From a virus: a stretch of DNA of 64,000 bases. The notes below the pieces were generated by a model that worked only from the letters and a program-made list of their open reading frames with translations, did not search any database and was not told the DNA's origin. How positions within the stretch are numbered: position 1 is the first letter of the stretch; each line of letters opens with the position of its first letter. The stretch is from IMG/VR virus record IMGVR_UViG_3300021962_000058, positions 27,150-91,149 of that record. The stretch is one strand, 5' to 3'. The translations under genes and the position numbers were made by a program. Of this stretch, positions 33,041 to 59,600 are shown one piece after another.

Positions 33041-35062
33041 ATGAGTTGGTCTAATGATTACAAAAAATCAATAGACTGTAAAAATCCAAAGGGTTTTTCT
33101 CAAAAGGCACATTGTGCTGCCAGAAAGAAAAGACAAAGAGGCGAAGAGACAAAATCAATGTCACCATTTAACGAAGACGTGCAAAGTGTAAAGAAGATTA
33201 AGTTCTCCAAATTTACACACAAAACTCCCCATCTAAAAGGCGGTCAACACGTTTTAGATCCAAATGTGGATTTAAAGCAATTAGTTCATCACGCAACTGT
33301 TCAGTATCTTGATCGTGATGCTGATGGTGATATTGACATCTATGATGCTTCTAGTAAAAAAACACCTGATGAAAATGTTATGAGTGCTCCTGGTGAAGCA
33401 CAAAAGAGATCTTTGAAACTAATTGCAAAGCAAAAAGGTGAAATGCTTCATACAAAAAGAGGCTCAGCATTTGAAGGTGTTGAAATGAGATATTGCAAAC
33501 TTTGCAGAAAAATGGAAGCAAGAACGGATTGTTCATATGGACCTACAATGTGGGATAAGTATTCGGTAGCAAAAGTTCATCCAGCCAACGAAGCGAAAGA
33601 TCACGAGTATTCAATGGCTCGTTCGGAACTCTCTACCATTGTTAATGGTGCCAAGAGACTTCAGAAAAAAATGAAGAAAGGTGAAGGTGAGATTGAGGCT
33701 TGGGTTCAGTCAAAAATCACCAAAGCAGCAGATTATATTGATTCGGCAGCAGATTATGTTGATAGTGGTGAAATGAATAAGGAAGAAGTTGAAATATTAG
33801 AAGGTAAAAGAGACGGTAAATCTGCAAAGGATCCTGGTTATTCATTAAGAGATTGGTTTAAAGGTGGTGGATGGGTTCAGGCAGGTGGTAAGTATGATGG
33901 TAAACCTTGTGCCAAACAACCAGGTCAAAAAACAAAGCCATTCTGCCGCGATGCCGATGATCGTGCTGCAATGAGCAAATCTGAAAGAACAAGAAGAGCA
34001 GCAAAAAAGCGTAAAGAAGATCCAAATCCAAATAGAAGTGGAAAAGCAAAATTTGTAAGTGCTTCTTATGAACCACAAGGTCAGCAACTTGATGAGTTAT
34101 GGGGAAAGGTTGCTCTTGGTGCAGGTGCAATGTTTATTCCATATCTTTTGAAAAAATTTGCAAAACCTGCTGTAGATAAAGTAATTAATGAACCAGCAAC
34201 TGGATCTGGAACTTTAGTTGATAAATTAAAGCAGAAAAGAGATACTATCAATCAGATGAATTCTTATGAATTACAAGGTGAAGTGATTGATGAAGCAGGA
34301 AAAAAATGCTGGAAAGGATATAAGAAGGCAGGAACTCAAACACTTTTTGGAAAAACTTATAATCGCTGCGTAAAGGAAGAAGTTTGTCCCGTTTGTGGAT
34401 ATGATCCCTGCGAATGTTTAGAAGGATCTCTCCAAGAGAAAAAAGATGCTTGCTATCATAAAGTAAAGTCACGTTATAAAGTTTGGCCAAGTGCATATGC
34501 ATCTGGTGCATTAGTTAAGTGTCGTAAAGTTGGAGCAGATAGTTGGGGAACTAAATCAGAAAGCACTGATGCACTTGGATATGATTGGGATACACCAATT
34601 AGAGAAAGACCAGATAGATATTGCCCCAAATGTGAAAAACTAGAACTAAGAAATGAATGTAAATATGGAACTAGATACTGGGATATGTTTTCACTTCCAG
34701 CAGAATTGATCGGATCAAAAAAAGAATATAATATAACTATGCCTTATGCAGGCAATGTGAAAGAAAAATATCAGTTTTCAAATTGGAGAGAAGAACTTGC
34801 AGAGGACTGGCAAAAAGTTAATCGTCAAGACAAAACTGATGGATTAAGTCCCGCTGCAGTAAAAGCATATCGTCGTGAGAATCCAGGTTCAAAACTTCAA
34901 ACTGCAGTAACTGAAAAGAAACCAAAAGGTAAGAGAGCAAAGCGTCGTGCATCATTCTGCCGCAGAATGAAGGGTATGAAGTCTAAACTGACTTCTGCAA
35001 AAACTGCAAGAGATCCAGATTCAAGAATTAACAAAGCACTACGTCGTTGGAGGTGTAACTAA
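33041..35062 (+). CDS. modular Cys-rich basic protein, 673 aa (candidate internal head protein)
   Basis: This protein is a chain of short basic or Cys-containing motifs. In order: IDCKNPKGFSQKAHCAARKK; an EF-hand-like loop DRDADGDIDIYD; a CxxC segment YCKLCRKMEARTDCSYGP ending in WDKYS; a DUF6321-like block (SLRDWFKGGGWVQAGGKYDG, then RAAMSKSERTRRAAKKRKED); CWKGYKKAGTQTLFGKTYNR; CPVCGYDPCEC; a DUF5872-like block (YKVWPSAYASGALVKCRKVG); a second CxxC segment YCPKCEKLELRNECKYGT; and a basic end (SFCRRMKGMKSKLTSAKTAR). Several LDE/LQE-type sites could be cut by gp21. Composition and place between gp16 and gp17 suggest a DNA-bound capsid-internal protein; function is not known. Confidence 0.75.
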   Translation: MSWSNDYKKSIDCKNPKGFSQKAHCAARKKRQRGEETKSMSPFNEDVQSVKKIKFSKFTHKTPHLKGGQHVLDPNVDLKQLVHHATVQYLDRDADGDIDIYDASSKKTPDENVMSAPGEAQKRSLKLIAKQKGEMLHTKRGSAFEGVEMRYCKLCRKMEARTDCSYGPTMWDKYSVAKVHPANEAKDHEYSMARSELSTIVNGAKRLQKKMKKGEGEIEAWVQSKITKAADYIDSAADYVDSGEMNKEEVEILEGKRDGKSAKDPGYSLRDWFKGGGWVQAGGKYDGKPCAKQPGQKTKPFCRDADDRAAMSKSERTRRAAKKRKEDPNPNRSGKAKFVSASYEPQGQQLDELWGKVALGAGAMFIPYLLKKFAKPAVDKVINEPATGSGTLVDKLKQKRDTINQMNSYELQGEVIDEAGKKCWKGYKKAGTQTLFGKTYNRCVKEEVCPVCGYDPCECLEGSLQEKKDACYHKVKSRYKVWPSAYASGALVKCRKVGADSWGTKSESTDALGYDWDTPIRERPDRYCPKCEKLELRNECKYGTRYWDMFSLPAELIGSKKEYNITMPYAGNVKEKYQFSNWREELAEDWQKVNRQDKTDGLSPAAVKAYRRENPGSKLQTAVTEKKPKGKRAKRRASFCRRMKGMKSKLTSAKTARDPDSRINKALRRWRCN

Positions 35063-35379
35063 TGAAATCTTTTAGAGAGTTTCTTTCCGAAAGTGTAAAT
35101 ATAGCAGGTGACTTTAATGGAAACCTTTATATTAATGGTTCTGAACAACAATCAGAACCTGTTGGAGAATCTTTCTTTGCTGACGTAGTTTGGGAAGGAA
35201 AGATGTATCGTTTAGAAGTTGAAGGTAAGATGATGCATAAAAATGAACTTGCTGAACAAATTCAAGAAGAATATCCTGGTGCAATTGTTCATAACATTTA
35301 TCCTTCACAATCACAAAGTTCTTTAAGAATCAAAAATTCACAAAGATATCAACCAGAAAGACTGACTTGGACTGATTAA
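35062..35379 (+). CDS. small protein with capsid-targeting-like N-terminus, 105 aa
   Basis: Starts MKSFREFLSES, very like the capsid-targeting sequence of T4 internal proteins (MKTYQEFIAEA) and containing a gp21 cleavage consensus LSE before Ser at residues 8-11. The rest is a small acidic alpha/beta domain (FFADVVWEGKMYRLEVEGKM, MHKNELAEQIQEEYPGAIVH). ATG overlaps the preceding stop (TAATG). I infer packaging into the prohead with removal of the first 10 residues. The role of the mature domain is unknown. Confidence 0.7.
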   Translation: MKSFREFLSESVNIAGDFNGNLYINGSEQQSEPVGESFFADVVWEGKMYRLEVEGKMMHKNELAEQIQEEYPGAIVHNIYPSQSQSSLRIKNSQRYQPERLTWTD

Positions 35380-35381
35380 TT

Positions 35382-36716: not shown

Positions 36717-36741
36717 TTAATTATGAGTGAAGTTTATCTTG

Positions 36742-36749
36742 TATAAATA
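36742..36749 (+). promoter_or_regulatory. late promoter (TATAAATA) before HNH gene and gp17
   Basis: Exact TATAAATA, 22 bases before the GTG start of the endonuclease gene; it should also serve the overlapping gp17. Confidence 0.65.
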
Positions 36750-36771
36750 TTTTTTAGATTGGGATTGAAAT

Positions 36772-37257
36772 GTGTCTGCTATTATTAAAGTTCCAAGAGA
36801 AAGATTAAGTCCTAAAACAGTAAGAAATATTGCTCGCAAAAATTGGGGATTGACTTGGGAACAAATGAAAGGTATGGATGTTCATCATTTCCCACCAAGA
36901 TGTGAAGGTGGAAAAGATATACCAGAGCATTTATATGTTTGTAGTAGAGAACTACATAAGTATGGGTGGCATAATGATGCTTGGTTTATGGAAAATTTAA
37001 ATAAGGCAACTCAAAAAAATATTGGTAGGAAACATAGTAAAGAAACTTGTAGAAAGAAAAGTGAGGCACTGAAAGGTCGCTCTTTTGGTCATAAGTATGA
37101 GGGTGGAGAAAAACACCCAAACAGTAAAAGAGTTTCCATCAATGGGAGAGTTTATGTTTCTCAACAAGAAGCAGCAGATGATGTTGGAATAACAATACAA
37201 GGTCTTTCATATAGAATGAAACACTGGGGTCCAGACAGGGGGTATGAGTATGTCTAG
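36772..37257 (+). CDS. free-standing HNH homing endonuclease with NUMOD/IENR1-type tail
   Basis: The likely start is GTG at 36772 (MSAIIKVPRERLSPKT). The catalytic HNH-like core is VHHFPPRCEGGKDIPEHLYV followed by C and H residues (ELHKYGWH). Next is a NUMOD3-type motif (GRKHSKETCRKKSEALKG), then an IENR1/NUMOD1-like DNA-recognition helix region (VYVSQQEAADDVGITIQG). Length 161 aa is normal for phage mobile endonucleases. It ends 14 bases inside the gp17 frame, so it lies between two intact genes and is not an intron. Such enzymes cut the cognate site in phages lacking them and spread by repair; gp17 or its flank is the probable target (inference). Confidence 0.85.
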   Translation: MSAIIKVPRERLSPKTVRNIARKNWGLTWEQMKGMDVHHFPPRCEGGKDIPEHLYVCSRELHKYGWHNDAWFMENLNKATQKNIGRKHSKETCRKKSEALKGRSFGHKYEGGEKHPNSKRVSINGRVYVSQQEAADDVGITIQGLSYRMKHWGPDRGYEYV

Positions 37258-38938: not shown

Positions 38939-39180
38939 TGGATTTCGATATAGACATAGATGATCAACTCAATACTCAACACCTACTTTTTTTAGAACGC
39001 CAATGCAGGGTCTGCAAAAAGACTAAAAGTCTGATAGATGACTTTTATCTTACTAGAAAAGGAAGAGGTATTTTCCCATCAGCGTACTCATATGAGTGCA
39101 AAGAGTGTACTAAAAAGAGAATTATAGAGAAACGAAAGAGTAATTTAGATATAATAAATTGGGAATATCCAGACTGGTAG
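38938..39180 (+). CDS. small four-Cys zinc-binding protein, 80 aa
   Basis: ATG at 38938 overlaps the gp17 stop (TAATG), so this start is preferred over a longer frame reaching back into gp17. The 80-residue protein has two CxxC pairs, CRVC and CKEC, separated by about 30 residues and followed by a basic helix (KKRIIEKRKS). This is the outline of a zinc ribbon such as occurs in endonuclease VII-like or HNH-associated proteins, but no catalytic His/Asn residues are evident. It may bind DNA near packaging (inference). Confidence 0.7.
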   Translation: MDFDIDIDDQLNTQHLLFLERQCRVCKKTKSLIDDFYLTRKGRGIFPSAYSYECKECTKKRIIEKRKSNLDIINWEYPDW

Positions 39181-39219
39181 TTGTTCACGCACTGTTTCCC
39201 CAATGAAAGTAGTCTTTTT

Positions 39220-39227: not shown

Positions 39228-39258
39228 TTTTTAGATTAATTCTGGATGGAGAATAAAG

Positions 39259-42070: not shown

Positions 42071-43777
42071 ATGGCAAAACTTTTTGGTTTTTCTATTGAT
42101 AGTAACAAAAACCAATCTCCTTCGGTAGTATCCCCCGTACCTCAAACCAATGAGGACGGGGTTGATAATTATATTGCTAGTGGATTTTATGGTCAATATA
42201 TTGATATCGAAGGAGTTTATCGAACAGAGCATGATTTAATCAAAAGATACAGGGAAATGGCACTTCACCCAGAGTGTGATGGTGCCATTGAAGATGTTGT
42301 CAACGAAGCTATTGTTAGTGATCTATACGATTCTCCAGTAGAGATTGAACTTTCTAATTTGAATGCTAGCGAATCACTTAAAAAGAAAATAAGAGAAGAA
42401 TTTAGATATCTAAAAGAAATCATGGACTTTGATAGAAAGTGCCATGAGATTTTTAGAAACTGGTATATTGATGGAAGAATTTATTATTTGAAGGTCATTG
42501 ATCTTAAGAATCCTCAGGCAGGAATTCAGGATCTAAGATACATTGATCCTATGAAGATGAAGTATATTCGTCAGGAAAAGAAAAATAATAAAGATCCTTA
42601 TGCTAGAGTAAATTCAAGAAACACTGAAAACTCTCTACCCCATAGTCCAGAATTTGAAGAGTATTTCTTATATACTCCAACACCAAATTATCCAACAGGA
42701 ATGATTTCAGGCGCTGGTTCTGGAAAATCAGTTAAGATTGCAAAAGACTCAGTTGTATATTGCACTTCTGGTCTTGTAGACAGAAATAAAAATACTGTTC
42801 TTTCTTATCTTCATAAAGCAATCAAAGCACTCAATCAACTGAGAATGATTGAGGACTCTCTTGTTATTTACAGATTATCAAGAGCACCTGAAAGAAGAAT
42901 TTTCTATATTGATGTTGGCAACCTTCCAAAGGTAAAAGCGGAACAATACCTTAAAGAGGTTATGTCTCGTTATAGAAATAAACTTGTATATGATGCTTCA
43001 ACTGGTGAAGTTCGTGATGACCGCAAGTTTATGTCTATGATGGAAGATTTTTGGTTACCTCGCCGTGAAGGTGGTAGAGGAACTGAAATCACCACTCTTC
43101 CTGGTGGGCAAAATCTTGGAGAACTTGCCGATATTGAATACTTCCAGAAAAAACTGTATAGAGCACTTGGAGTTCCAGAATCAAGAATTGCTGGAAGTGG
43201 TGATGGATTTAATCTCGGAAGATCATCGGAAATTTTAAGAGACGAACTTAAATTTGCAAAGTTTGTTGGTCGTTTGAGAAAGAGATTTGCTCAAATGTTC
43301 AATGATATGTTGAAAACGCAATTGATTCTCAAAAACATTGTCAGTCCAGAAGATTGGGATGTAATGTCAGATCATATTCAATATGATTTCTTATACGATA
43401 ATCAATTTGCTGAACTTAAAGAGTCAGAACTTCTAAATGGACGTTTAGGAACACTTGCAACAATTGAACCTTACATTGGAAAATATTTCTCAACAGAATA
43501 TGTAAGAAAGAAAATTCTTCGTCAAACTGATTCAGAAATCATTGAGATTGATGAGCAGATTGAGGATGAAATTCAAAAAGGAATTCTTCCAGATCCTTCA
43601 ATGGTTGATCCAATCACTGGTGCTCCATTACCACAACCTGGTGAAGGAAATGGTATGGCAGGAATGGGTCAAGATGCAATGGGAATGGGTGAGATTCCAA
43701 CAGAGCCAGGTCTAGATGCACAAGCAAATGTAACAGACGCCCAAATGCAAAAAGATGCTAAAAAGGCTGAGATATAA
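42071..43777 (+). CDS. gp20: portal vertex protein gp20
   Basis: A 568-residue portal (T4: 524 aa). Recognised by DLIKRYREMALHPECDGAIE followed by DVVNEAIVSD, the crown/stem segments (LRMIEDSLVIYRLSRAPERR, IFYIDVGNLPKVKAEQYLKE), and YFQKKLYRALGVPESRIAGS. It forms the dodecameric DNA gate to which gp17 and later gp13 bind and initiates prohead assembly. The C-terminal 60 residues are a Gly/Met/Gln-rich flexible tail. A late promoter overlaps its stop codon. Confidence 0.95.
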   Translation: MAKLFGFSIDSNKNQSPSVVSPVPQTNEDGVDNYIASGFYGQYIDIEGVYRTEHDLIKRYREMALHPECDGAIEDVVNEAIVSDLYDSPVEIELSNLNASESLKKKIREEFRYLKEIMDFDRKCHEIFRNWYIDGRIYYLKVIDLKNPQAGIQDLRYIDPMKMKYIRQEKKNNKDPYARVNSRNTENSLPHSPEFEEYFLYTPTPNYPTGMISGAGSGKSVKIAKDSVVYCTSGLVDRNKNTVLSYLHKAIKALNQLRMIEDSLVIYRLSRAPERRIFYIDVGNLPKVKAEQYLKEVMSRYRNKLVYDASTGEVRDDRKFMSMMEDFWLPRREGGRGTEITTLPGGQNLGELADIEYFQKKLYRALGVPESRIAGSGDGFNLGRSSEILRDELKFAKFVGRLRKRFAQMFNDMLKTQLILKNIVSPEDWDVMSDHIQYDFLYDNQFAELKESELLNGRLGTLATIEPYIGKYFSTEYVRKKILRQTDSEIIEIDEQIEDEIQKGILPDPSMVDPITGAPLPQPGEGNGMAGMGQDAMGMGEIPTEPGLDAQANVTDAQMQKDAKKAEI

Positions 43778-43780
43778 ATA
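43773..43780 (+). promoter_or_regulatory. late promoter (TATAAATA) after gp20
   Basis: Exact TATAAATA overlapping the gp20 stop, 25 bases before the small prohead-core-like gene at 43806. Confidence 0.65.
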
Positions 43781-43805
43781 AATTTATAATTAATAAAACA
43801 ATTTT

Positions 43806-43979
43806 ATGGAAGATCTTATCGACTTGATCGCAACTGATGCATCAGCATCGGATGTTCGTGACAAAATTCACGATATTCTTTATTCAAAAGCAGCAGAGAG
43901 AATTGAACTCGCAAAACCATACGTAGCATCGTCTATGTTTGGTGAGTCTGAAGTAGAAGAAACAGAGGATCAAGAATAA
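43806..43979 (+). CDS. gp67-like prohead core protein, 57 aa
   Basis: A short acidic, helical protein between portal and prohead protease, where T4 has genes 67 and 68. It begins MEDLIDLIATDASASDVRDK, continues with a helix (IHDILYSKAAERIELAKP), and ends with an acidic tail (ESEVEETEDQE). T4 gp67 is a similarly small acidic core protein. Position, size and charge support the assignment, but sequence similarity to T4 cannot be judged by eye. Its stop overlaps the next start (TAATG). Confidence 0.65.
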   Translation: MEDLIDLIATDASASDVRDKIHDILYSKAAERIELAKPYVASSMFGESEVEETEDQE

Positions 43980-44254
43980 TGGCCAATAGAATTAAAGTTC
44001 TTGGGGCAGAAGCAGCACTTCCAACTACAACCGGAACGGCGACTAGTTTTAGTTCGGCAACGGTTGTTCGTTTAGTTAATACTGCACCGACCACAGAATA
44101 TCTAGTTACAGTGGTCGAAACACAGGGTGGAACCGTTGTTGGTTCTTTCACTCTACCTCGACTACAAACTGAACTTTTGGAAAAATTACCATCACATTGT
44201 GTGTATGCGGCGAATGCTGCTGTTTTGGGAGCAAAAGTAGGATTCACAAACTAA
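43979..44254 (+). CDS. small beta-rich protein between portal and protease genes, 91 aa
   Basis: A 91-residue protein starting MANRIKVLGAEAALPTTTGT and rich in Val/Thr, with a predicted beta-sandwich pattern (ATVVRLVNTAPTTEYLVTVV, GGTVVGSFTLPRLQTELLEK). No charged core-protein character, so it is unlike gp67/gp68. The pattern suits a small virion protein, perhaps a head or tail decoration. ATG overlaps the preceding stop, and gp21 begins 4 bases after its end. Confidence 0.65.
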   Translation: MANRIKVLGAEAALPTTTGTATSFSSATVVRLVNTAPTTEYLVTVVETQGGTVVGSFTLPRLQTELLEKLPSHCVYAANAAVLGAKVGFTN

Positions 44255-44258
44255 AACA

Positions 44259-44909
44259 ATGAAACTCATCACAGAAGAAATTCAAAAGGTAGAATTTATT
44301 ACCGAAGGCAAAGGTTTAAAGCAAAAAATGTATATTGAAGGTGTTTTCCTTCAAGGTGATATTTGCAACCGTAATGGAAGAATGTATCCAATGGAAACAC
44401 TCTCCCGTGAGGTAAAAAGATATACCGAATCTTTTATTAATAAAGGTCGTGCTCTTGGTGAACTTGGACACCCTGATGGACCAACAGTCAACCTTGATCG
44501 TGTTTCTCATAAAATTGTTTCTCTCACTGCAGAAGGAACAAACTTTAGAGGTAAGGCACAACTTCTCGAAACTCCAATGGGTAAGATTGCAAAATCTCTT
44601 ATTGGTGAAGGAGTTTGTCTTGGCGTTTCTTCTCGTGGTGTTGGTTCATTAAAGATGACCAATGAGGGTCATAAAATTGTTGGCGAAGATTTTATGCTAG
44701 CAACTGCTGCTGATATTGTTGCCGATCCTTCTGCACCTGATGCTTTTGTTCAGGGAATTATGGAAGGTAAAGAGTGGGTTTGGGAAGGGGGAATTCTTCG
44801 TGAAAGACTTGCAGAACAAACTCAAAAGAGAATTAATACTCTGGTTGATCAAAGAAGACTTGAAGAGCATAAGTTGAATTTATTCAACGAATTTCTTTCA
44901 AATCTTTAA
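44259..44909 (+). CDS. gp21: prohead maturation protease gp21
   Basis: A 216-residue serine protease (T4: 212 aa) of the herpes-protease-like fold. His71 lies in ALGELGHPDGPTVNLDRVSH and the candidate nucleophile Ser124/125 in GVCLGVSSRGVGSL, followed by a conserved DIVADPSAPDAFVQGIMEG. It processes gp23, gp22 and internal proteins after a (L/I)xE site, then leaves the capsid as fragments. Several N-termini in this window carry that site. Late promoter and scaffold gene follow. Confidence 0.94.
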   Translation: MKLITEEIQKVEFITEGKGLKQKMYIEGVFLQGDICNRNGRMYPMETLSREVKRYTESFINKGRALGELGHPDGPTVNLDRVSHKIVSLTAEGTNFRGKAQLLETPMGKIAKSLIGEGVCLGVSSRGVGSLKMTNEGHKIVGEDFMLATAADIVADPSAPDAFVQGIMEGKEWVWEGGILRERLAEQTQKRINTLVDQRRLEEHKLNLFNEFLSNL

Positions 44910-44911
44910 TT

Positions 44912-44919
44912 TATAAATA
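44912..44919 (+). promoter_or_regulatory. late promoter (TATAAATA) before gp22
   Basis: Exact TATAAATA, 30 bases before the gp22 ATG, just after the gp21 stop. Confidence 0.65.
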
Positions 44920-44949
44920 AATATAGATTATCTAAGAATCTAAACAAAA

Positions 44950-46035
44950 ATGTCCGTTGGTAGAAATTTACAAGAAATGGAAAACGTAGTAACCAAAGGG
45001 GCTGCACCTGCCGATCCAATGCCACAAACTGGCATCGAGTACGAAGATTTAGGTGGTCCTACTCCCGAAAATTATCGTCCAGATGACGATTCTTCTAAAC
45101 TCAAAGACCCATCTGCAACTCTTGCTCAGGTAAGAGACATTGTTAATGCGAAAGCAATGAAAGCAGAAGAGACTGAGATTGAAGATGAAGTCATTGAAGA
45201 GGAAACCGAAGAGGAAGAGACCGACCTCGAAGGTGAGGAAGGTGGTGAAGATTCAGAAGAAGATACCGCCGAAGAAGAAGTAGAAGAAGTAGAAGAAGAG
45301 TTTAACATCGATGAAGATGTAAACGCTCTTCTCGAAGGTGAGGAGCTTTCTGAGGAATTCCAAGAGAAAGCACGCACCATCTTCGAAGCAGCGATTAAGT
45401 CGAAAGTTGCCGAAATCAAAGAGTCTCTCCAAGAGTCATATGCAGTTGCTCTTGTAGAAGAACTCAATGCTATCAAATCGGAACTTACCGAAAGAGTCGA
45501 TGCATATCTTGAGTATGTCGCTGATGAGTGGTTCCAAGAGAATGCACTCGCAGTTGAGCACGGTCTTAAGACCGAAATGACCGAATCATTCCTCGTTGGA
45601 ATGAAGAGTCTTTTTGAAGATCATTATGTAACAATCCCTGAAGATAGATATGATGTAATCGAGAGCATGGTAGATAAACTTGATGAAATGGAAGAAAAAC
45701 TCAACGAGCAAATTCAAAGAAATGTTGCTCTTAATAGAAGATTAGCTGAGTCGGTTGCTGATGTAATCTTTGCAGATGTCGCTGAGGGTCTTGCACTATC
45801 TCAGAAGGACAAACTCGCTTCTCTTGCCGAAAATGTTGAGTTTGAAAGTGAAGCAGACTATCGTGAGAAGCTAGTAACTCTGAGGGAATCATATTTCCCA
45901 GCAAACACTGGTACTCAAAGAAGCACAACTGAGAATCTCTCAGAAGAAGTCTCATCTGATGAAACGATCACTGAATCTGTTTCGCCAGTAATGGCTGCTT
46001 ATTTAGAGACTCTTGCTAGAGCTTCTAAAAAGTGA
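44950..46035 (+). CDS. gp22: prohead scaffold/core protein gp22
   Basis: A 361-residue, strongly acidic helical protein between protease and major capsid genes, as in T4 (269 aa). Residues 60-120 are mostly Glu/Asp (runs such as EEETEEEETDLEGEEGGEDS), followed by long helices (VALVEELNAIKSELTERVDA) and a C-terminal helical segment (LSQKDKLASLAENVEFESEA). It forms the core around which gp23 assembles and is digested by gp21; many LxE sites are present. Confidence 0.9.
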   Translation: MSVGRNLQEMENVVTKGAAPADPMPQTGIEYEDLGGPTPENYRPDDDSSKLKDPSATLAQVRDIVNAKAMKAEETEIEDEVIEEETEEEETDLEGEEGGEDSEEDTAEEEVEEVEEEFNIDEDVNALLEGEELSEEFQEKARTIFEAAIKSKVAEIKESLQESYAVALVEELNAIKSELTERVDAYLEYVADEWFQENALAVEHGLKTEMTESFLVGMKSLFEDHYVTIPEDRYDVIESMVDKLDEMEEKLNEQIQRNVALNRRLAESVADVIFADVAEGLALSQKDKLASLAENVEFESEADYREKLVTLRESYFPANTGTQRSTTENLSEEVSSDETITESVSPVMAAYLETLARASKK

Positions 46036-46084
46036 TTTTTAGATCATAATCAAACAACAACACTTTTAAAAGAGGTAAATTCAA

Positions 46085-47485
46085 ATGCAAATGTTCAATG
46101 CTGAGCAATTGCAGGAGAAGTGGGCACCTATCCTCGACTATGAGGGTCTTGATTCAATCAAAGATTCGCATCGTAGAGCGGTAACCGCTATCCTGCTAGA
46201 AAACCAAGAGAGAGAACTCCGTGAGGAGAGAGCATTCCTCTCTGAAGGTCCTACTGTTAGCACCCTTTCTGGAACCGGTAATCCTGGTTTCTCTGCCGGC
46301 GCTTCTGCACCTGTTGCTGGTTTCGACCCCGTTCTGATCTCCCTGATCAGACGTTCAATGCCTAACCTGGTCGCTTATGACCTCGCTGGCGTTCAACCAA
46401 TGAACGGTCCTACTGGACTCATCTTCGCAATGCGCTCGAAGTACAACACCCAGAGCGGCACCGAAGCACTGTTCAACGAAGCAGATACTGCATTCTCTGG
46501 TCAGTCAACCAACCTCAACAACACTCAGGGTTGGACTAACGGAACCGTTGGTCTTGGTACTACAACCCAAAGAGGAACCAATCCTGGTCTTCTCGATCCT
46601 ACTTTCCCTGCAACTGGCGATGCTAGTACCTACAACGTAGGTCAGGGTATGCGTACCGATGTTGCTGAGAATCTTGGCGACGGTACTGAGGGTCACTTCA
46701 ATGAGATGGCATTCTCGATCGAGAAGGTCACTGTTACTGCGAAGTCCAGAGCACTGAAAGCTGAGTACTCACTCGAACTCGCACAAGACCTGAAGGCAAT
46801 TCACGGTCTGAATGCAGAAGCTGAGCTTGCAAACATCCTCAGCACCGAGATCCTCGCAGAAATCAACCGCGAAGTTATCCGTACCATCTATAACGTTGCT
46901 GAGTCTGGTGCTCAGGCAAACGTTGCTACCGCTGGTACTTTCGACCTCGATGTTGACTCCAACGGTCGTTGGTCAGTTGAGAAGTTCAAGGGTCTTATCT
47001 TCCAGATCGAGCGCGACGCTAACGCAATCGCACAAAGAACTCGTCGTGGAAAGGGCAACATGATCCTCTGCTCCGCAGACGTTGCTTCCGCCCTGACAAT
47101 GGCTGGTGTACTTGATTACACCCCCGCCCTCAACGCTAACCTCAACGTTGATGACACTGGTAACACCTTCGCTGGTGTTCTGCAAGGTAAGTATCGTGTT
47201 TATATCGATCCTTATTCGGCAAACGTTTCTGCTAACCAGTACTACGTTGTTGGTTATAAGGGTTCTTCCCCTTATGATGCAGGTCTGTTCTATTGCCCAT
47301 ACGTACCCCTCCAGATGGTACGTGCGGTTGGTGAGGACACCTTCCAGCCCAAGATTGGCTTCAAGACCCGCTATGGTATCGTTGCTAACCCATTCTCACA
47401 GGGTACAACCGCTATCACTGGCGACGGTCTGGTACGTAACGCAAACCGTTACTACAGAAGAGTCAAAGTAACCAATCTAATGTAA
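46085..47485 (+). CDS. gp23: major capsid protein gp23
   Basis: A 466-residue capsid protein (T4: 521 aa). The start MQMFNAEQLQEKWAPILDY, IRRSMPNLVAYDLAGVQPMN, and LKAEYSLELAQDLKAIHGLN are hallmark gp23 stretches. A likely gp21 cleavage site is FLSE before GPTVS (E54/G55), leaving a mature chain of about 412 residues. The gene is visibly richer in G+C and uses more C-ending codons than its neighbours, consistent with high expression. AGAGG ribosome site upstream; a strong terminator follows. Confidence 0.97.
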   Translation: MQMFNAEQLQEKWAPILDYEGLDSIKDSHRRAVTAILLENQERELREERAFLSEGPTVSTLSGTGNPGFSAGASAPVAGFDPVLISLIRRSMPNLVAYDLAGVQPMNGPTGLIFAMRSKYNTQSGTEALFNEADTAFSGQSTNLNNTQGWTNGTVGLGTTTQRGTNPGLLDPTFPATGDASTYNVGQGMRTDVAENLGDGTEGHFNEMAFSIEKVTVTAKSRALKAEYSLELAQDLKAIHGLNAEAELANILSTEILAEINREVIRTIYNVAESGAQANVATAGTFDLDVDSNGRWSVEKFKGLIFQIERDANAIAQRTRRGKGNMILCSADVASALTMAGVLDYTPALNANLNVDDTGNTFAGVLQGKYRVYIDPYSANVSANQYYVVGYKGSSPYDAGLFYCPYVPLQMVRAVGEDTFQPKIGFKTRYGIVANPFSQGTTAITGDGLVRNANRYYRRVKVTNLM

Positions 47486-47566: not shown

Positions 47567-48070
47567 ATGGCATTTATATATAAAGCAACAAACAAAGTTA
47601 ATGGTAAAATTTATATCGGGAGAACATCCTACGACAAATTATACAAAAGAATTAATTCTCACTTTTGGTATTCTAAAAATAAAGATTGCAACATACCATT
47701 TGCAAATGCCCTAAAAAAATATGGAAGAAATCAATTTGAATGGGAAATTTTAGAGGAATGTAAAAATGAAGATATGGGGCAAAAAGAAATTTATTGGATA
47801 GATAAGTTAAAACCAGATTACAATGTTACTCTTGGTGGTGATGGGGGACATTATGGAAGAATATGCCCAGAAAATGTGAAGTTAGCATCTAAAATTGCAA
47901 ACAGTAAACCTGTCATAGATACGAGAACTGGAATCGTGTATGAAAGTGCAACAGAAGCATCAAAAAATCTTGGTATTTCCAGATCCAGTATTTCTAGAAG
48001 TTGCGCAAAAGATGAATCTAAAAGTCGCCCAAATAGAAAACCTTGGTTTAGATATATAGAGAATAAATAA
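47567..48070 (+). CDS. free-standing GIY-YIG homing endonuclease
   Basis: The N-terminus FIYKATNKVNGKIYIGRTS carries the GIY-YIG pattern (here FIY...YIG), followed by the catalytic-type Arg in YKRINSH and a conserved Glu region (EWEILEECKNEDMGQKEIYW). The C-terminal part (DTRTGIVYESATEASKNLGI, SRSSISRS) resembles the NUMOD1/IENR1 DNA-binding helix also present in the HNH gene upstream of gp17. At 167 residues it is complete. It sits just after the intact gp23 gene, probably recognising a gp23-linked site in phages without it (inference). Confidence 0.87.
   Translation: MAFIYKATNKVNGKIYIGRTSYDKLYKRINSHFWYSKNKDCNIPFANALKKYGRNQFEWEILEECKNEDMGQKEIYWIDKLKPDYNVTLGGDGGHYGRICPENVKLASKIANSKPVIDTRTGIVYESATEASKNLGISRSSISRSCAKDESKSRPNRKPWFRYIENK
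48062..48069 (+). promoter_or_regulatory. late promoter motif (AATAAATA) before the 48090 gene
   Basis: One-base variant of the late consensus, 20 bases before the ATG at 48090 and overlapping the endonuclease stop. Confidence 0.45.
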
Positions 48071-48089: not shown

Positions 48090-48248
48090 ATGAAACCTAC
48101 TCCTAGACAATCGCAAGAAATTCATAAGAACTATGAAAAGGTTGTTGAGCATCTCATCAGTGAAGGTTATGCAGAGGATAAAGAATCTGCCAATAACATC
48201 ATTAATGGTATGAGTGAGACTTGGTTCAATCTCATAGTTAATGATTGA
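48090..48248 (+). CDS. 52-aa protein made of the EGYA helical motif
   Basis: ATG at 48090, TGA at 48246-48248. After a short lead (MKPTPRQSQEIHKNYE) the protein consists almost entirely of a motif shared with three larger proteins at 56-59.6 kb: VVEHLISEGYAEDKESANNI, then INGMSETWFNLIV. Conserved positions are the Leu pair, E-G-Y, an acidic turn, the second helix, and MSxxW before an Ile-Val. Here the motif stands alone, which marks it as a folding unit. The next gene begins 2 bases after the stop. Function unknown. Confidence 0.7.
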   Translation: MKPTPRQSQEIHKNYEKVVEHLISEGYAEDKESANNIINGMSETWFNLIVND

Positions 48249-48250: not shown

Positions 48251-48886
48251 ATGAAGACTTTTAAAGAATTTTGCGGCGATGCTGATATTTTAGAATTTTG
48301 GAATCCATTTGCATCTAAACCGCAAGTAAAACCAAAAGCAAACACAAAAGTTCTTGCTTATAAGAACTATAATCCTGGTGTTTTGGATAAGTCTACTGGA
48401 AAATTCACCCAACGTCCTCATAGTGAAGCAGAACAACAGAGGTATGGTTGGAAACCAGTAACTGTAAGCACTTACAGTAAGGCAGATACTCCCGGTTCAT
48501 TAACTGCAAGTGGTCATAAATTTGATGACACTCAAAGACTAGTTGCTGTTCCATATGCATCTAAAACAAGCTCTAAACCTTCTATTCCATTTGGAACAAA
48601 GTTACAAATAACAAAAGCACCAGGAACAAAGGCACCAATTGCAACAACTACTGTTCGTGACACTGGAAACTTTGGACGAGCTGGAGATTATAATAAACAA
48701 ACATATGCAGATGCAGCATTACAAACTACTAGAGATTTTACAGGAAACCCCAATATTACTGCAATAGAAGCTGGTAAACAAAAAGTTTACGTTAGAACTT
48801 TATCAAAACCAAAACCAAAAATTCCTGATTTGGGCGTAAAGGTAAATATGAGTATTCCAAAAATAGTTCCAACTAAGAAAAAATAA
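48251..48886 (+). CDS. RlpA-like double-psi beta-barrel protein with capsid-targeting-like N-terminus
   Basis: ATG at 48251 (an upstream in-frame TTG is less likely) gives 211 residues. The first residues MKTFKEFCGDADILE resemble T4 capsid-targeting sequences, with an I-L-E site at 13-15. Residues 72-165 match an RlpA/3D-type barrel: VSTYSKADTPGSLTASGHKF, LVAVPYASK, SIPFGTKLQITK, and the Asp-containing TTVRDTGNFGRAGDY, then YADAALQTT. Proteins with this fold act on or bind peptidoglycan. I infer a murein-active protein carried in the virion head, perhaps released with DNA. A basic Pro/Lys tail ends it. The stop overlaps the gp3 start. Confidence 0.72.
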   Translation: MKTFKEFCGDADILEFWNPFASKPQVKPKANTKVLAYKNYNPGVLDKSTGKFTQRPHSEAEQQRYGWKPVTVSTYSKADTPGSLTASGHKFDDTQRLVAVPYASKTSSKPSIPFGTKLQITKAPGTKAPIATTTVRDTGNFGRAGDYNKQTYADAALQTTRDFTGNPNITAIEAGKQKVYVRTLSKPKPKIPDLGVKVNMSIPKIVPTKKK

Positions 48887-49866: not shown

Positions 49867-50274
49867 ATGAAGACTTTTAACGAGTTTCAAGAGCAACTGT
49901 CACTATCACAAGCATTTCAAAAAGCAGGAAAGGGACCAGGAGTTGGAGACTGGGAAAGTTCTAGAACTTTAAATAGTTTGAGGGGTGCATCTACAAGCGA
50001 TAGAGCAAAACCAAAGGGGAGCAAGGCAGGAATTCCAACCGTACCTTTAAATCAGGCAACTTATAGGGGAAGAGCAGAAGCAGATAGAAATCCAAAATAT
50101 CAAGAGAATCCGGACTATACTGGACCAACAATTGGGTTTGGAGGTTCTCCTGGAACTAAAGATAAAATGCCGGGAACAACGCCAAGTAATAATCCAAGTT
50201 TATCTACAACAAAATTAAAATCAAAACCACTATCTACATCAAAACCAAAATCAAATTATTCTAACTTTATATGA
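49867..50274 (+). CDS. disordered small protein with MKTF-EF N-terminus, 135 aa
   Basis: Starts MKTFNEFQEQLSLS, which is like the N-termini of the 35062 and 48251 proteins and T4 internal proteins, though no clean (L/I)xE site follows. The remainder is low-complexity and basic, rich in Gly, Pro, Ser, Lys and Thr (GRAEADRNPKYQENPDYTGP, LSTTKLKSKPLSTSKPKS). It is probably disordered and possibly DNA-binding inside the head. A weak late-type motif (GCTAAATA at 49846-49853) lies upstream and a strong terminator follows. Confidence 0.65.
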   Translation: MKTFNEFQEQLSLSQAFQKAGKGPGVGDWESSRTLNSLRGASTSDRAKPKGSKAGIPTVPLNQATYRGRAEADRNPKYQENPDYTGPTIGFGGSPGTKDKMPGTTPSNNPSLSTTKLKSKPLSTSKPKSNYSNFI

Positions 50275-52293: not shown

Positions 52294-52329
52294 GAACATA
52301 ACAAAAATTTATCTACTGAGACCGATGTT

Positions 52330-53891: not shown

Positions 53892-54178
53892 TGTTTCTTC
53901 TGACTCTTAAAGATCAAAAAGAAGACGGGGCATACGCTGTTCAAAACAGATACGGGGAAAAAGTTCTTTTCCTCTTTGAAGAAGAAGATGATGCCGTTCG
54001 CTATGCTTTGATGCTTGAAGATCAGGAAGATACAGAAATGGATGTTGTAGAGGTTGATGATGCCCTTGCAATAATGACCTGTAAGAGGTATAATTACAAA
54101 TATGCCGTCGTTACAGCAAACGATATTGTTATTCCCCCTAAACTGAATGATAACCTTTCAAAAGATCCGTTGGCGTAA
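53891..54178 (+). CDS. DUF3110-like protein between gp47 and gp46, 95 aa
   Basis: A 95-residue acidic protein. FLLTLKDQKEDGAYAVQNRY, then VLFLFEEEDDAVRYALMLED and VVEVDDALAIMTCKRYNYKY follow the pattern of DUF3110, a family widespread in cyanobacteria and other photosynthetic hosts. No enzyme motif is known for it. It is held between the two halves of the Mre11/Rad50-like pair, its ATG on the gp47 stop and its 3' end overlapping the gp46 start by 32 bases. It may have come from a host and could modulate the nuclease complex (inference). Confidence 0.75.
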   Translation: MFLLTLKDQKEDGAYAVQNRYGEKVLFLFEEEDDAVRYALMLEDQEDTEMDVVEVDDALAIMTCKRYNYKYAVVTANDIVIPPKLNDNLSKDPLA

Positions 54179-55874: not shown

Positions 55875-56020
55875 TGCAAGTCCCAAATCGCTATCATCAT
55901 TCAAAGAAGGAGCAAAAGCGAAAACTGAAACCGCAAGCACTCCGACAAGCAAAGGCACGACGCCAAGCACTCAAGAACCGCCTCTCACGGGGCGGTTCTT
56001 CTTTTTTGATAAATATCTAA
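55874..56020 (+). CDS. small basic protein, 48 aa
   Basis: ATG overlaps the gp46 stop (TAATG). The product is highly basic (MQVPNRYHHSKKEQKRKLKP, then QALRQAKARRQALKNRLSR), likely one helix that binds nucleic acid. Its last 15 codons run through a strong hairpin and T-tract and end at TAA 56018-56020. The overlap with gp46 and uniform basic composition favour a real gene over the alternative frame from 55822. Function unknown. Confidence 0.6.
   Translation: MQVPNRYHHSKKEQKRKLKPQALRQAKARRQALKNRLSRGGSSFLINI
55973..56007 (+). terminator. strong intrinsic terminator inside the 3' end of the small basic gene
   Basis: AAGAACCGCC and GGCGGTTCTT form a perfect 10-bp stem with an 8-base loop, followed by C and six T. 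It should end transcripts of the gp47/gp46 operon, yet lies before the stop codon of the 55874 frame. Confidence 0.85.
56008..56015 (+). promoter_or_regulatory. late promoter motif (GATAAATA) before the 56037 gene
   Basis: One-base variant of TATAAATA directly after the terminator T-run, 21 bases before the ATG at 56037. Confidence 0.55.
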
Positions 56021-56036
56021 AAAGTATCTTTCAAAG

Positions 56037-58160
56037 ATGAGCGACGAAAATTATAAGGGTTTACAAGAAGCATATAATTCAATTTACGAAGCATTAAATG
56101 ATCAGTCTGAATTGGACAATCTTCGTAAAGCATCTGCTCAGGCAACGATGGCAGGTCCATCAAAAGAAGCACAAGCATTGATGAGTGATAGAACAAAGAG
56201 AATGCTTGGTGCAGATAAATTAAAGGCAGGTATTGCTGGACAAGAGAGAGTGCAGAGAATGATGAGTGGTGCTCCAGAACCAACTGCACCAAAACCATCC
56301 TCAACTACATCAGCACCAGCACCATCATCGACAAGACCATCCACAACAATTCAACCAGGAACTTTTGGTACAACGATGGGACCTGGACCCACATTTAGAG
56401 GTGGACCTGTTCCTCCTCCAATTGTAAATCGTAATGCTATTCAACCCACTGATTGGGGATCTATAAAGTCTCCTACTTCAACTCAACAGACACAAACCCC
56501 ACAGGCACCAAAACCTCCTGTTCCTGATAGAAGTGCAGATTATCAAAAAGCTTGGAATAATCGTAACAATCCAATTGCTAAGGGGCAAATAAGAAATACC
56601 TGGAATCAAATGTCGCCAGAAGAAAAGGCAGCGGCAAAAGAATGGGCAAAGGCAAATAACAAGAACTGGCAAGAAATGGGTCTTCCAGAAAGTGTTAATC
56701 TCTATGATCAAGTTCTAGAAATTCTTCTTGATGAAGGTTATACTGAGCAAGAGAGCAACCAAATTATGGTTGAACTTGTAAATGAAGCGGCTTGGAATGA
56801 TTTTCTTAAAGCAGTTCAGAGTAGAACTGGAATTGGAAAACCTGGTGTTGGACCTGGACAAGTTGCTAAAAATGTTTTAAGAGCAGGGATATCTGATATT
56901 CTTGGAACATCTATTGGAGCAGGATCTGCACCATCTGCATCTGCACCAGTAAAGGCACCAACTGTAAGAACTCAGTCACCTGCACCAATTGTTAGAACAT
57001 CCACTGCAAAAATAAGAACCGCTCCAAAAGGAGCAAACATTGCTCCCGATCCTTGGAAAGGTGGAACAACTGGAAATAAAATAAATGATATTACTCAAAA
57101 ACCAACTGCAAAACCAACTACTACAAGAGCACTAACTGGATCTTCTGGACCTAATGTTCGTGGAGCATTACCATCTTCGTCTAGTTCTGCTCGTGGTGGT
57201 GCTATAACTCCTACTGCTAAACCTGGATCTGTAACTCCTGCTGCCAAACCAGTTAGTGGAAAACCTGTAAGTACAAGAATTCAACCAGTAACTGTTAGAG
57301 AAATTCCAAGTTCATCAAAAGGTCTACCAGGATCTAATGTTCGTGGACTGCTACCACAAGGTGTGAGAAATGTTCTTCCAGATCCATGGAAACAAGCTTC
57401 TGATACTATTTCTGGTGCTAGAAACTTGTGGAGTAGAGTTCAACAAGCAACTAAACCACAAGCACAATTAAAACCAACACAGACTAATGTTCGTGGATTG
57501 TTACCAGCAGCAAAACCAACACCATCAACTCAGGCAGCAAAACCTGCAACCTCAGTAAGATCTCAACAGTTCCAAGATGTTCAGAGATTGAATAGAATGA
57601 CTGGTGGTGGTTTAATGGGAGAACTTCCAAGTACAAAACCAGCATCTAAACCTGCTCCTAAATCAACTCGTGTTGATAAGTTGGCACCAAAACCAGCAAA
57701 AGCAACAAAACCAGCAGTAAAACCACAAACTCCTGGCGGTGGTTCTAAGATTCTTCAAGGACTTGGAACACTTGCTTCACTTAGAAATCTTACGCCACTT
57801 GGAGTTGCCGCTGCTGTAATGGCACCTAGACCAACTGCTGATGGTACTTTAACTGCTGCTATGAAGCGTGGTGATGTTGCTCCACCTGCACCAAAACTTC
57901 CTGCACCAGCAAAACCTGCTGCTGCTAAACCAGCATCTAAACCAGCATCTAAACCAGCATCTAAACCAGCATCTAAACCTGCTGTTAAATCTACTGTTAC
58001 TAAACCAGCATCTAAACCTGCTGCTAAACCAGCAGCACCAGTTGATACAGATCTTCAAAAATATGATGAATTAAGAAAAACTGATCCTGCAAAAGCAAAG
58101 GAATTGGGAACTAAGATTTGGCTTAGAAAGTATGGTATTCCTGGATCAGATTACGCATAA
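56037..58160 (+). CDS. Pro/Ala/Lys-rich protein with LQEAY N-terminus and EGY motif, 707 aa
   Basis: The N-terminus MSDENYKGLQEAYNSIYEAL carries an L-Q-E/A site like gp21 targets. Around residues 220-250 lies the EGY helical motif (LYDQVLEILLDEGYTEQESN). Most of the rest is disordered: Thr/Pro-rich segments, three NVRG(L/A)LP units, and a histone-H1-like tail with tandem SKPA repeats near residues 630-650. The C-terminus has TDLQKYDELRKTDPAKAKEL and a final YGIPGSDYA. I infer a DNA-binding internal head protein. A late-type promoter precedes it. It matches no enzyme family known to me. Confidence 0.7.
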   Translation: MSDENYKGLQEAYNSIYEALNDQSELDNLRKASAQATMAGPSKEAQALMSDRTKRMLGADKLKAGIAGQERVQRMMSGAPEPTAPKPSSTTSAPAPSSTRPSTTIQPGTFGTTMGPGPTFRGGPVPPPIVNRNAIQPTDWGSIKSPTSTQQTQTPQAPKPPVPDRSADYQKAWNNRNNPIAKGQIRNTWNQMSPEEKAAAKEWAKANNKNWQEMGLPESVNLYDQVLEILLDEGYTEQESNQIMVELVNEAAWNDFLKAVQSRTGIGKPGVGPGQVAKNVLRAGISDILGTSIGAGSAPSASAPVKAPTVRTQSPAPIVRTSTAKIRTAPKGANIAPDPWKGGTTGNKINDITQKPTAKPTTTRALTGSSGPNVRGALPSSSSSARGGAITPTAKPGSVTPAAKPVSGKPVSTRIQPVTVREIPSSSKGLPGSNVRGLLPQGVRNVLPDPWKQASDTISGARNLWSRVQQATKPQAQLKPTQTNVRGLLPAAKPTPSTQAAKPATSVRSQQFQDVQRLNRMTGGGLMGELPSTKPASKPAPKSTRVDKLAPKPAKATKPAVKPQTPGGGSKILQGLGTLASLRNLTPLGVAAAVMAPRPTADGTLTAAMKRGDVAPPAPKLPAPAKPAAAKPASKPASKPASKPASKPAVKSTVTKPASKPAAKPAAPVDTDLQKYDELRKTDPAKAKELGTKIWLRKYGIPGSDYA
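57926..57973 (+). repeat. four tandem 12-bp repeats encoding SKPA
   Basis: TAAACCAGCATC is repeated four times without mismatch, giving SKPA repeats in the 707-aa protein; degenerate copies (CCTGCTGCTAAA-like) flank it. This is coding low complexity, not a CRISPR. Confidence 0.9.
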
Positions 58161-58161
58161 C

Positions 58162-58169
58162 TATAAATA
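58162..58169 (+). promoter_or_regulatory. late promoter (TATAAATA) before the 58190 gene
   Basis: Exact TATAAATA, 20 bases before the ATG. The leader that follows (CTAAAAAACTAT) is nearly the same as that of the 59076 gene. Confidence 0.7.
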
Positions 58170-58189
58170 ACTAAAAAACTATTGGTAAA

Positions 58190-58999
58190 ATGGAAGCAAA
58201 ACTAGTAAAAGACCTGATGGAGGCGTATGCTTCCGTTTATGCTCAACCAGAAGAAGTCATTGCTGAATCTGATTGTGAGTGTGAGGATGAGGAAAAGTCT
58301 GAAAAAGAGACTCCTGAAATGAATGGTAAGAAGAAAGGAAAGAAGGAAAAAGAAGATGAAGATGAAATGAAAGAAGGATATATCTCCGAAGATCCTGTTC
58401 AAGATTATCGTGATATGAAGAGGGCAAAGGAAAATGCTGCTGGAATGAGAGGTTCTGAATTAAGTCATTCCACTAATTCTACGGGTGGTGGATCTGCTAA
58501 ACAAAAACCTCAGAAACCAGAACCAAGAAGTAGAGAGTTTTCTCACGGTGGTAGTTCTCAACCAAGAAGTAGAGAGTTTGCTCGTGAAGAAGTAGAAACT
58601 GATCTCTTTGATATTATTCTTGAGTATCTGGTTGCCGAAGGTTATGCCGATACTAATCAATCAGCTCTTGTCATTATGGCAAATATGAGTGAGGATTGGA
58701 GACAGAATATTGTTGAGACTATTGCTGGTGGAGGATATACTCCAAATCCAGTTGGAAATGCAATCAGAACTGGTGCTGGACTTCTCCAAAAGGCAATGAG
58801 TAATCCATCAGTTCAAGGTGCAATTAAAACTGGTTCTGAAATGTTAAAAAAGAAAGCACCAACTGGTGGATATAGCACCCGTCCTGGTGACGGAAAACCA
58901 TATGCAGATGGTCCTCTCTGGGGTCCTGGTTCTGGTGATGCACCAAAACAACCACAAAGAAAACCACAAGCACCTATGAGAGACGAACCTCTCTGGTGA
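58190..58999 (+). CDS. EGYA-family protein with LMEAY N-terminus, 269 aa
   Basis: Begins MEAKLVKDLMEAYASVYAQP with an L-M-E/A site matching the gp21 consensus and another at VIAE/S. A very acidic, Lys-containing linker follows (SDCECEDEEKSEKETPEM). Two PRSREF units precede the EGYA motif (LFDIILEYLVAEGYADTNQS, then IMANMSEDWRQNIVE). The C-terminal third is Gly/Pro-rich with a repeated hydrophobic helix. It is paralogous to the next gene (shared leader, N-terminus and motif). I infer an internal capsid protein. Membrane segments or enzyme motifs are not seen. Confidence 0.7.
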   Translation: MEAKLVKDLMEAYASVYAQPEEVIAESDCECEDEEKSEKETPEMNGKKKGKKEKEDEDEMKEGYISEDPVQDYRDMKRAKENAAGMRGSELSHSTNSTGGGSAKQKPQKPEPRSREFSHGGSSQPRSREFAREEVETDLFDIILEYLVAEGYADTNQSALVIMANMSEDWRQNIVETIAGGGYTPNPVGNAIRTGAGLLQKAMSNPSVQGAIKTGSEMLKKKAPTGGYSTRPGDGKPYADGPLWGPGSGDAPKQPQRKPQAPMRDEPLW

Positions 59000-59023
59000 T
59001 TGATTAAATAAATTTCATTTTTG

Positions 59024-59048
59024 GAGGTCATATGACCTCTTTTTTTTT
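59024..59048 (+). terminator. intrinsic terminator between the two EGYA-family genes
   Basis: The 16-base palindrome GAGGTCATATGACCTC is followed by nine T. It ends the transcript of the 58190 gene; the next late motif starts right after it. Confidence 0.9.
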
Positions 59049-59056
59049 AATAAATA
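59049..59056 (+). promoter_or_regulatory. late promoter motif (AATAAATA) before the 59076 gene
   Basis: One-base variant of the late element, 19 bases before the ATG. Its first bases adjoin the terminator T-tract. Confidence 0.6.
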
Positions 59057-59075
59057 ACTAAAAAACTATAACAAA

Positions 59076-59600
59076 ATGGAATCAAAAGAAGTTAGAGGTT
59101 TGATGGAAGCATATTCTTCCGTTTATGAGCAGAGTATGCTTGATACTGTCGTTGATACTGCTACCAGTGCTGTAAAACCACCAGTTCAGAGACAGGCAAA
59201 TAAAAAATATGGTCCTCTTGGTGGATATGTTGCCGGTAGAGAAGTTGATAAAATTGGCAATCAGGTAAAAAGTGGAGATTATGGTGGCGCTTTAAACCGT
59301 GCAGTACAGGGCGCTGGAAAATTGTTTAACTCTGTTGATATGTTTGACATTGTAAAAGGACACCTTCTCGACGAAGGTTATGCAGATACCGAAGAAGCAG
59401 CTCTTGCTATTATGGCGAATATGAGTAAAGAGTGGAAGAAGAGTATTGTTGAGCAAGCAAAGGATGACTTGGAATCACCAGATTACAAGAGAGCAAAGGG
59501 GATTGTGAATAAAGGAGGATCAGGAAATGCGGGTGGCACATACAAAGGTGACAAACCAGGTTATGATCCGATCACTGGAATTCGTTTAAAGGGAGTCTGA
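59076..59600 (+). CDS. EGYA-family protein with LMEAY N-terminus, 174 aa
   Basis: Starts MESKEVRGLMEAYSSVYEQS, with the L-M-E/A site expected for gp21, and then a Gly/Val linker containing GPLGGYVAGREVDKIGNQVK. The EGYA motif follows (MFDIVKGHLLDEGYADTEEA, IMANMSKEWKKSIVEQ), and a Gly/Asp/Lys tail ends the protein. It is a shorter paralogue of the gene at 58190, with very similar leader DNA. Likely packaged in the head (inference). A terminator/promoter cassette comes next. Confidence 0.7.
   Translation: MESKEVRGLMEAYSSVYEQSMLDTVVDTATSAVKPPVQRQANKKYGPLGGYVAGREVDKIGNQVKSGDYGGALNRAVQGAGKLFNSVDMFDIVKGHLLDEGYADTEEAALAIMANMSKEWKKSIVEQAKDDLESPDYKRAKGIVNKGGSGNAGGTYKGDKPGYDPITGIRLKGV

Follow-up and report, generated by a model that had tools for sequence, protein, structure and literature searches.

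The 64,000-nucleotide (nt) stretch analysed here (the window) comprises positions 27150-91149 of a 91149-base IMG/VR record, IMGVR_UViG_3300021962_000058, and derives from a T4-like cyanophage. We propose, with a probability of about 0.63, that it encodes late proteins meant for the prohead interior, to which they would be directed via two classes of N-terminal leader (proteins are named by the first position of their genes; Table 1). An earlier note on this DNA had described a set of six proteins, at least four with gp21-type cut sites and two more that start like the T4 internal-protein leader. The leaders are real and recur as gene-start tags, and the quoted LSE/S (35062), LQE/A (56037) and LME/A (58190 and 59076) N-termini were all reproduced on translation, but the six are not of one leader type. 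They form three groups: complete class 1 (35062), the targeting half of class 1 only (48251 and 49867) and class 2 (56037, 58190 and 59076). Positions 4 and 7 carry aromatic residues in the first two groups but not in the third, which does not show the F/Y4 plus F7 combination of a T4 IPIII-type capsid-targeting sequence (CTS).

Complete leaders, unlike the bare cleavage motif, are far above chance. The motif [LIM]xE[AGS] occurs within the first 30 residues of 9 of the 49 window proteins, where shuffling gives an expectation of 3.84, and was therefore rejected by itself as weak evidence. Among these nine, gp55, cobS and the 4167-residue protein at 5056 are taken for chance occurrences; another of the nine is gp21 itself.

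According to a study on T4, residues 4 and 7 of the IPIII leader serve targeting and residues 8 and 10 processing, with an aspartate at position 10 blocking processing but not targeting. That the CTS exists, and that T4-like phages probably use it for various proteins, is already known (PMC9026906). In our proposal, 35062 would use this internal-protein leader in full and 48251 and 49867 a reduced version of it: F4 and F7 would dock on the prohead core, presumably on gp22, gp21 would cut after E10 where this residue is present, and the mature protein would be released among the DNA. Docking on the core, cutting and release are established for T4. Among the class 1 proteins of the window, (L/I)xE ending at residue 10 and followed by A/G/S is found only in 35062. 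In this family all 52 distinct relatives retain K2, F/Y4, F7, I/L8, E10 and S/A/G11, whereas positions 5 and 6 vary. The relatives come from 81 loci, at 79 of which the start differs from the leader peptide used among the six search words, and one (L174) derived from the leader scan described below. For 35062, structure prediction (mean predicted local distance difference test, pLDDT, 63) gave a leader helix at residues 4-11 and a small beta-beta-alpha-beta core; the best PDB match of this fold, T7 Gp2, had an E of 0.19 and is a lead only.

The MKTF-EF starts that had been noticed in 48251 (MKTFKEFCGDAD) and 49867 (MKTFNEFQEQLS) are indeed present. Since D10 and Q10 replace E10, no cut is predicted in these two proteins, and the full T4-type site is confined to 35062. 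If the T4 rule applies, 48251 would be packaged yet left uncut. Its RlpA-like domain, claimed earlier, is linked to it through a relative, L116 (34% identity, E 1e-14), which bears the leader MKTFKQFVIE/A and matches DPBB_1 at 2.3e-12; 48251 itself had no Pfam match up to E 1, DPBB_1 included. Further relatives start with MKSFNQFCKD (DSL-LC03) and, from a GTG, MKTFNQFREE (S-PRM1). For 49867, no relative was found in the phage collection at E up to 0.01.

DNA patterns for both leaders were scanned over IMG/VR, each yielding a non-random subset of at least 120 stretches; all counts from the scans refer to the matches listed. The contigs are partly redundant (121 distinct class 1 and 106 distinct class 2 N-termini). 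The class 1 pattern, MKxFxxF[hydrophobic]xEA, marks the start of an open reading frame (ORF) in 124 of 125 matches. Of these ORFs, 114 span at least 50 codons and the other 10 are truncated by the contig end, and in all 124 an in-frame stop or the contig end lies no more than 27 codons upstream. With the codons permuted, the collection gave 21 stretches and no such ORF start (0/21). A T4-core homolog is encoded on 86 of 120 class 1 stretches, as against 1 of the 21 control stretches.

Behind the class 1 leader the cargo is diverse: the 114 of 124 ORFs that are complete and have at least 60 codons fall into 76 loose sequence clusters. By Pfam, 18 clusters are cytidylyltransferase-like, four DUF6267 and two DUF5661, with single cases of DUF192, DUF6321, DUF5824, WYL_2, glucosaminidase, DPBB_1, zeta-toxin/AAA and GNAT; 26 of the 76 match a cytidyltransferase PHROG. 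One contig carries two neighbouring small leader-bearing genes (L124:3736-4529), the first a GNAT acetyltransferase by Pfam, the second without a Pfam match and, from its HGTP motif, ADP-ribosyltransferase-like by reading alone. A module rich in cysteine, CPxGxYxC...KKCKKIP, is combined with a class 1 leader in IMG/VR (L140, L206 and L208) and stands leaderless in a virion protein of phage S-SCSM1 (L020:42662-44215).

Class 2 is defined by a common leader, L[MQ]E/AYxS[VI]Y, at residues 9-17 of 56037, 58190 and 59076. We infer that LxE/AYxxVY would serve the same targeting and gp21 processing. In the wider family, LxE/[AS]Yxx[VI]Y stands at the gene start with a late-type promoter motif upstream. 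A search of IMG/VR with the module of 59076 gave 396 relatives, the best 80 of which were kept for the following counts. The family rows include the 48090 ORF and two proteins of phage S-SRM01 that are out of the class 2 register; 68 of 77 rows have a complete 5' end, and 52 remain after removal of near-identical N-termini. In these, [LIMFV]xE/[ASG] lies in register before the tyrosine in 38 of 52, and some site up to this anchor is found in 43 of 52, compared with 12.8% in shuffled sequences. With residue P3 restricted to L or I, the figures are 33 of 52 in register and 37 of 52 for any site (5.3% shuffled). The register is lost in four rows, where a site lies three residues upstream. For 56037, no relative was found in the phage collection; a leader-bearing relative from IMG/VR (L336) resembles it through the N-terminus.

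At the DNA level, the class 2 pattern was found on at least 120 stretches, its permuted control on a single one. The pattern lies at an ORF start in 124 of 128 matches, and 115 of 120 stretches carry a T4-core homolog. A class 1 gene is present on 34 of these 120 as well; the 0 of 21 control stretches with a class 1 gene are not a matched control for this co-occurrence, since the control is mostly not T4-like (1/21). In 34 of 111 complete class 2 ORFs the DEGYA module of 58190 and 59076 is undetectable (E above 0.01), so the leader sits on other proteins too; these ORFs comprise 28 distinct sequences, 22 of them below 70% identity. LxE/GY is contained both in the DEGYA module and in another module of relatives, EEGYDLS, and gp21 could therefore cut class 2 proteins again inside. 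A possible mimicry of the gp23 N-terminus (LQEKWAPIL) by the class 2 leader was suggestive by a class 2 matrix, in which gp23 ranked 5 of 48, 7 of 219 and 5 of 218, and was not used.

The late-promoter consensus is (N)ATAAATA. All three class 2 genes of the window have such a motif at -27 to -29: NATAAATA at 56008 for 56037, TATAAATA at 58162 for 58190 and AATAAATA at 59049 for 59076, compared with 9 of 45 other window starts. The first of these motifs occurs 19 times on the plus strand of the window and never on the minus strand. Among the distinct class 2 genes from IMG/VR, 85 of 106 have ATAAATA within 45 nt upstream; the figure is 147 of 543 for the remaining ORFs of at least 150 codons at the same loci, 42 of 121 for distinct class 1 genes and 1% for random positions.

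Virion proteomes of relatives were taken from published accounts. For S-CREM2 these give 52 detected proteins (Table 3 of that work) among 219 genes. A strict class 1 pattern, M..[FYL]..F[LIMF].E, in which A/G/S after E10 is not asked for, matches five S-CREM2 genes, where shuffling leads to an expectation of 0.03 matches: the S-adenosylmethionine (SAM) hydrolase gp6, gp13, the APH-like kinase gp14, gp136 and the cytidylyltransferase gp154. All five were detected (Fisher 6.5e-4). A looser pattern adds gp175, which was undetected (5/6, p 0.003). The detected Cas9 of this phage, gp12, does not match the strict pattern and has a class 1-like RFASFMAE/A at residues 16-25 of the annotated protein. 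Cas9 gp12 (L012:7704-10313) also contains a GDGHG-type module that recurs in the virion kinase gp14 and in cytidylyltransferases bearing a leader. For S-SCSM1, leaders were located by an ORF scan and the total of 282 genes was taken from locus tags; its record holds 48 "virion protein" labels, compared with 45 in the paper, and we treated the label as detection by mass spectrometry (MS). Two S-SCSM1 genes match the strict class 1 pattern, one of which, an NMNAT gene (MKSFLQFLKE/A), is labelled virion protein. The looser pattern in S-SZBM1 includes a detected cytidylyltransferase, 140 (MRFRQFIIE/A), with 1/3 detected overall (p 0.36). The S-SM1 paper, of which only the clusters named in the text were used, names the cytidylyltransferase T4-GC190 as detected; it starts with MKKFSAFLNE/A. 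S-CREM1 (14 detected proteins), which holds a 35062 relative, was left out of the counts. Over S-CREM2, S-SZBM1 and S-SCSM1 together, 6 of 8 strict class 1 genes were detected, the remaining genes giving 124 of 711 (Fisher 6.4e-4), and the six strict class 1 genes other than 35062 orthologs were all detected.

For class 2, the one S-SCSM1 gene with the leader, SSCSM1_89 (MDSKTFNSLSE/AYAAVYS), is labelled virion protein (1/1). The class 2 family profile (A4) matches SSCSM1_89 alone among 402 S-SCSM1 ORFs, at E 7e-10 over residues 1-308; of two small DEGYA seed models, one matched S-SCSM1 at E 5.3e-5 and the other gave no match. The class 2 scan gave no match in S-CREM2 and S-SM1. In S-SZBM1, a minus-strand match at 11286 was left out because its ATG lies inside an annotated oxygenase gene; GTG or TTG starts, internal ATGs and antisense ORFs that matched leader patterns were counted as chance.

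Several of these data weigh against the proposed loading of the head. The 35062 ortholog of S-SZBM1 (191), the only strict match there, is not among the 30 detected proteins, and that of S-SCSM1, at 44215, is not labelled virion protein; SSZBM1_192 (MKTFKQYITEA), a match to the loose pattern, is likewise undetected. Minus S-CREM2, the strict class 1 count falls to 1/3 (p 0.40). A/G/S follows E10 in only one of the five S-CREM2 leaders (gp154; the others have F, Q, E and D), so that the full cleavage consensus of the earlier note is met once in this phage; if A/G/S is required, 2 of 4 class 1 genes of the three phages were detected. Virion evidence for class 2 consists of one protein. No site up to the anchor is found in 9 of 52 class 2 family N-termini, and AYxxVY is conserved past the cut, where a discarded leader would have no need of conservation. 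The earlier claim that the proteins are carried in the head is partly supported: published virion data include some leader-bearing proteins and some relatives of the window set, but the 35062 orthologs went undetected in two proteomes. 35062 has the best T4-type leader and would be either scarce or a core protein lost at maturation.

The class 2 motif might instead be a docking or oligomerisation helix that stays uncleaved, with the LxE/A match incidental. The conservation beyond the cut speaks for this, as does the structure predicted for 59076 (mean pLDDT 58), in which a helix at residues 3-22 would span the presumed cut; a comparison of this model with the PDB gave no useful match (best E 2.9). 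Moreover, the canonical site is missing in 14 of 52 rows, one of which is misanchored while three lack the motif altogether. We nevertheless find this reading doubtful, given the excess of sites over shuffled sequences, both with the broad P3 and with L or I only. The four rows in which the register is lost and a site lies three residues upstream point the same way, although they may represent one clade and all rows share ancestry. On our preferred reading, processing by gp21, the presumed cut would lie inside the predicted helix.

An unlikely alternative is that the class 2 proteins and 35062 are scaffold-like core proteins, cut repeatedly at LxE/[AG] and, as with T4 gp22 and gp67, largely removed during maturation. 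Sites of the type [LI]xE[AGS] are in excess in gp22 of the window (7 versus 1.83 expected) and in 56037 (4 versus 0.64), each with p 0.006 in 500 shuffles. A similar excess is also seen outside the head proteins, however (cobS, 4 versus 0.97, p 0.014). Within the DEGYA module the sequence is LxE/GY, and neither E nor G varies over the 34 aligned rows; this invariance is partly selected, because the rows were fetched with search words including DEGYADTE, and a three-helix turn in a moderate-confidence model could explain it as well. The non-detection of 35062 orthologs in two virion proteomes would fit a core role, whereas SSCSM1_89, a class 2 protein with the DEGYA module, is labelled virion protein. 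Finally, co-purification of abundant late proteins, with leaders marking late genes only, is allowed by the S-CREM2 and S-SCSM1 authors, but we regard it as improbable because leader carriers are enriched among the detected S-CREM2 proteins, a conserved peptide is not required by a late gene, and the class 1 leader agrees with the residues reported to direct packaging in T4 (PMC9026906).

The set should also take in the leaderless 33041 and, less certainly, the ORF of 52 codons at 48090. A relative of 33041 (L123) carries a leader. The 33041 homolog SSCSM1_29 (E 1e-27) is labelled virion protein and lies just upstream of the S-SCSM1 35062 ortholog, and parts of S-CREM2 gp137 and gp160, both in the MS table of that phage, are homologous to 33041. 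33041 consists of modules that recur in other proteins detected in virions, and we include it in the set because of this homology. Together with 48251, 49867 and 56037 it makes up four of the six most basic proteins per length among the 49 of the window, the remaining two being 36772 and 47567. The basic character ascribed earlier to some of the proteins applies to 48251, 49867 and 56037 but not to 58190 (net charge -11), 59076 (0) or 35062 (-6), and the H1-like tails reduce to the AKP-rich tail of 56037. In T4, internal proteins touch DNA through lysines (PMC3012670); several of the mature proteins here, being basic, are likely held on DNA.

Table 1. Genes and leaders discussed in the text (positions in the window; aa, amino acids; a slash marks the predicted or presumed cut)
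Position	Strand	Feature	Remarks
33041..35062	+	673-aa basic protein (net +46), leaderless	phrog_727, DUF6321
35062..35379	+	105-aa protein, leader MKSFREFLSE/S (then VNI)	phrog_1742, PHROG E 8.8e-41
35062..35091	+	class 1 leader (residues 1-10) of 35062; cut predicted after E10	translation and relatives
44259..44909	+	gp21 prohead protease	Peptidase_S77 PF03420, E 5.5e-37; phrog_207; presumed processing enzyme
44950..46035	+	gp22 scaffold	T4_CASP match; presumed docking partner of leaders
46085..47485	+	gp23 major capsid precursor	FLSE54/G55 site; annotated major head subunit match
48090..48248	+	52-codon ORF, DEGYA-type module	NATAAATA at 48062; lies immediately before 48251; outside the list of the earlier note
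48251..48886	+	211-aa RlpA-like basic protein, MKTFKEFCGD	F4/F7 half, D10
49867..50274	+	135-aa basic protein, MKTFNEFQEQ	F4/F7 half alone, Q10
56037..58160	+	707-aa AKP-rich basic protein (net +49), MSDENYKGLQE/AYNSIYE	class 2 leader
58190..58999	+	269-aa protein, MEAKLVKDLME/AYASVYA, DEGYA module	class 2 leader
59076..59600	+	174-aa protein, MESKEVRGLME/AYSSVYE, DEGYA module	class 2 leader

The head genes gp20 to gp23 occupy 42071-47485, and the earlier statement that gp21 and a gp23 with its own LSE/G site are encoded in the window was confirmed by the Peptidase_S77 match and by translation, respectively. Closest to the window in the phage collection is S-SRM01, with 80.9% identity across 56% of a 22-kb query. 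The very basic proteins at 36772-37257 (by gp17) and 47567-48070 (right after gp23) are, by reading alone, likely homing endonucleases. An ORF with a TTG start at 2043-2384 resembles S-adenosylmethionine decarboxylase (speD), again by reading alone, and has a late-type motif 28 nt upstream.

T4 IPI, IPII and IPIII share with the window set the presence of gp21, diverse mature parts and a leader of 10 residues that has aromatics at 4 and 7, a hydrophobic residue at 8 and E at 10, the complete form being confined in the window to 35062 (PMC9026906 and PMC3012670). The window differs in that its cargo belongs to other families, 48251 and 49867 lack E10, and class 2 lacks F4/F7. S-CREM2, a T4-like cyanophage as well, has a virion SAM hydrolase, an APH-like kinase and a cytidylyltransferase that begin with the class 1 leader; its cargo differs from that of the window, and the accessible part of its account does not mention the shared leader. 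phiKZ and SPN3US, with head and ejection proteins from which propeptides are cleaved, resemble the window in a prohead protease that cuts after E and in the protein mass in the head (PMC9026906), but the phiKZ motif is S/A-X-E, unlike that of the window. We found no description of a cyanophage CTS or leader in the listed titles and abstract starts of open-licence PMC articles, which does not prove its absence from print.

In our proposal the mature proteins would be exchangeable cargo that may be delivered into the host. The broader claim is held tentatively, at slightly less than even odds: T4-like cyanophages may use two separate capsid-loading labels, the second of them, LxE/AYxxVY, undescribed, to fill the head with exchangeable proteins delivered with the DNA, a set that would include Cas9, SAM hydrolase, kinases, nucleotidyltransferases, GNAT and RlpA-like proteins. 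Cyanophage papers report virion enzymes but cannot tell cargo from contamination. A shared leader provides a sequence criterion for this distinction and predicts further cargo from sequence alone, with LxE/AYxxVY as a second candidate packaging label. This would make the protein load that accompanies the DNA of a T4-like marine phage directly testable.

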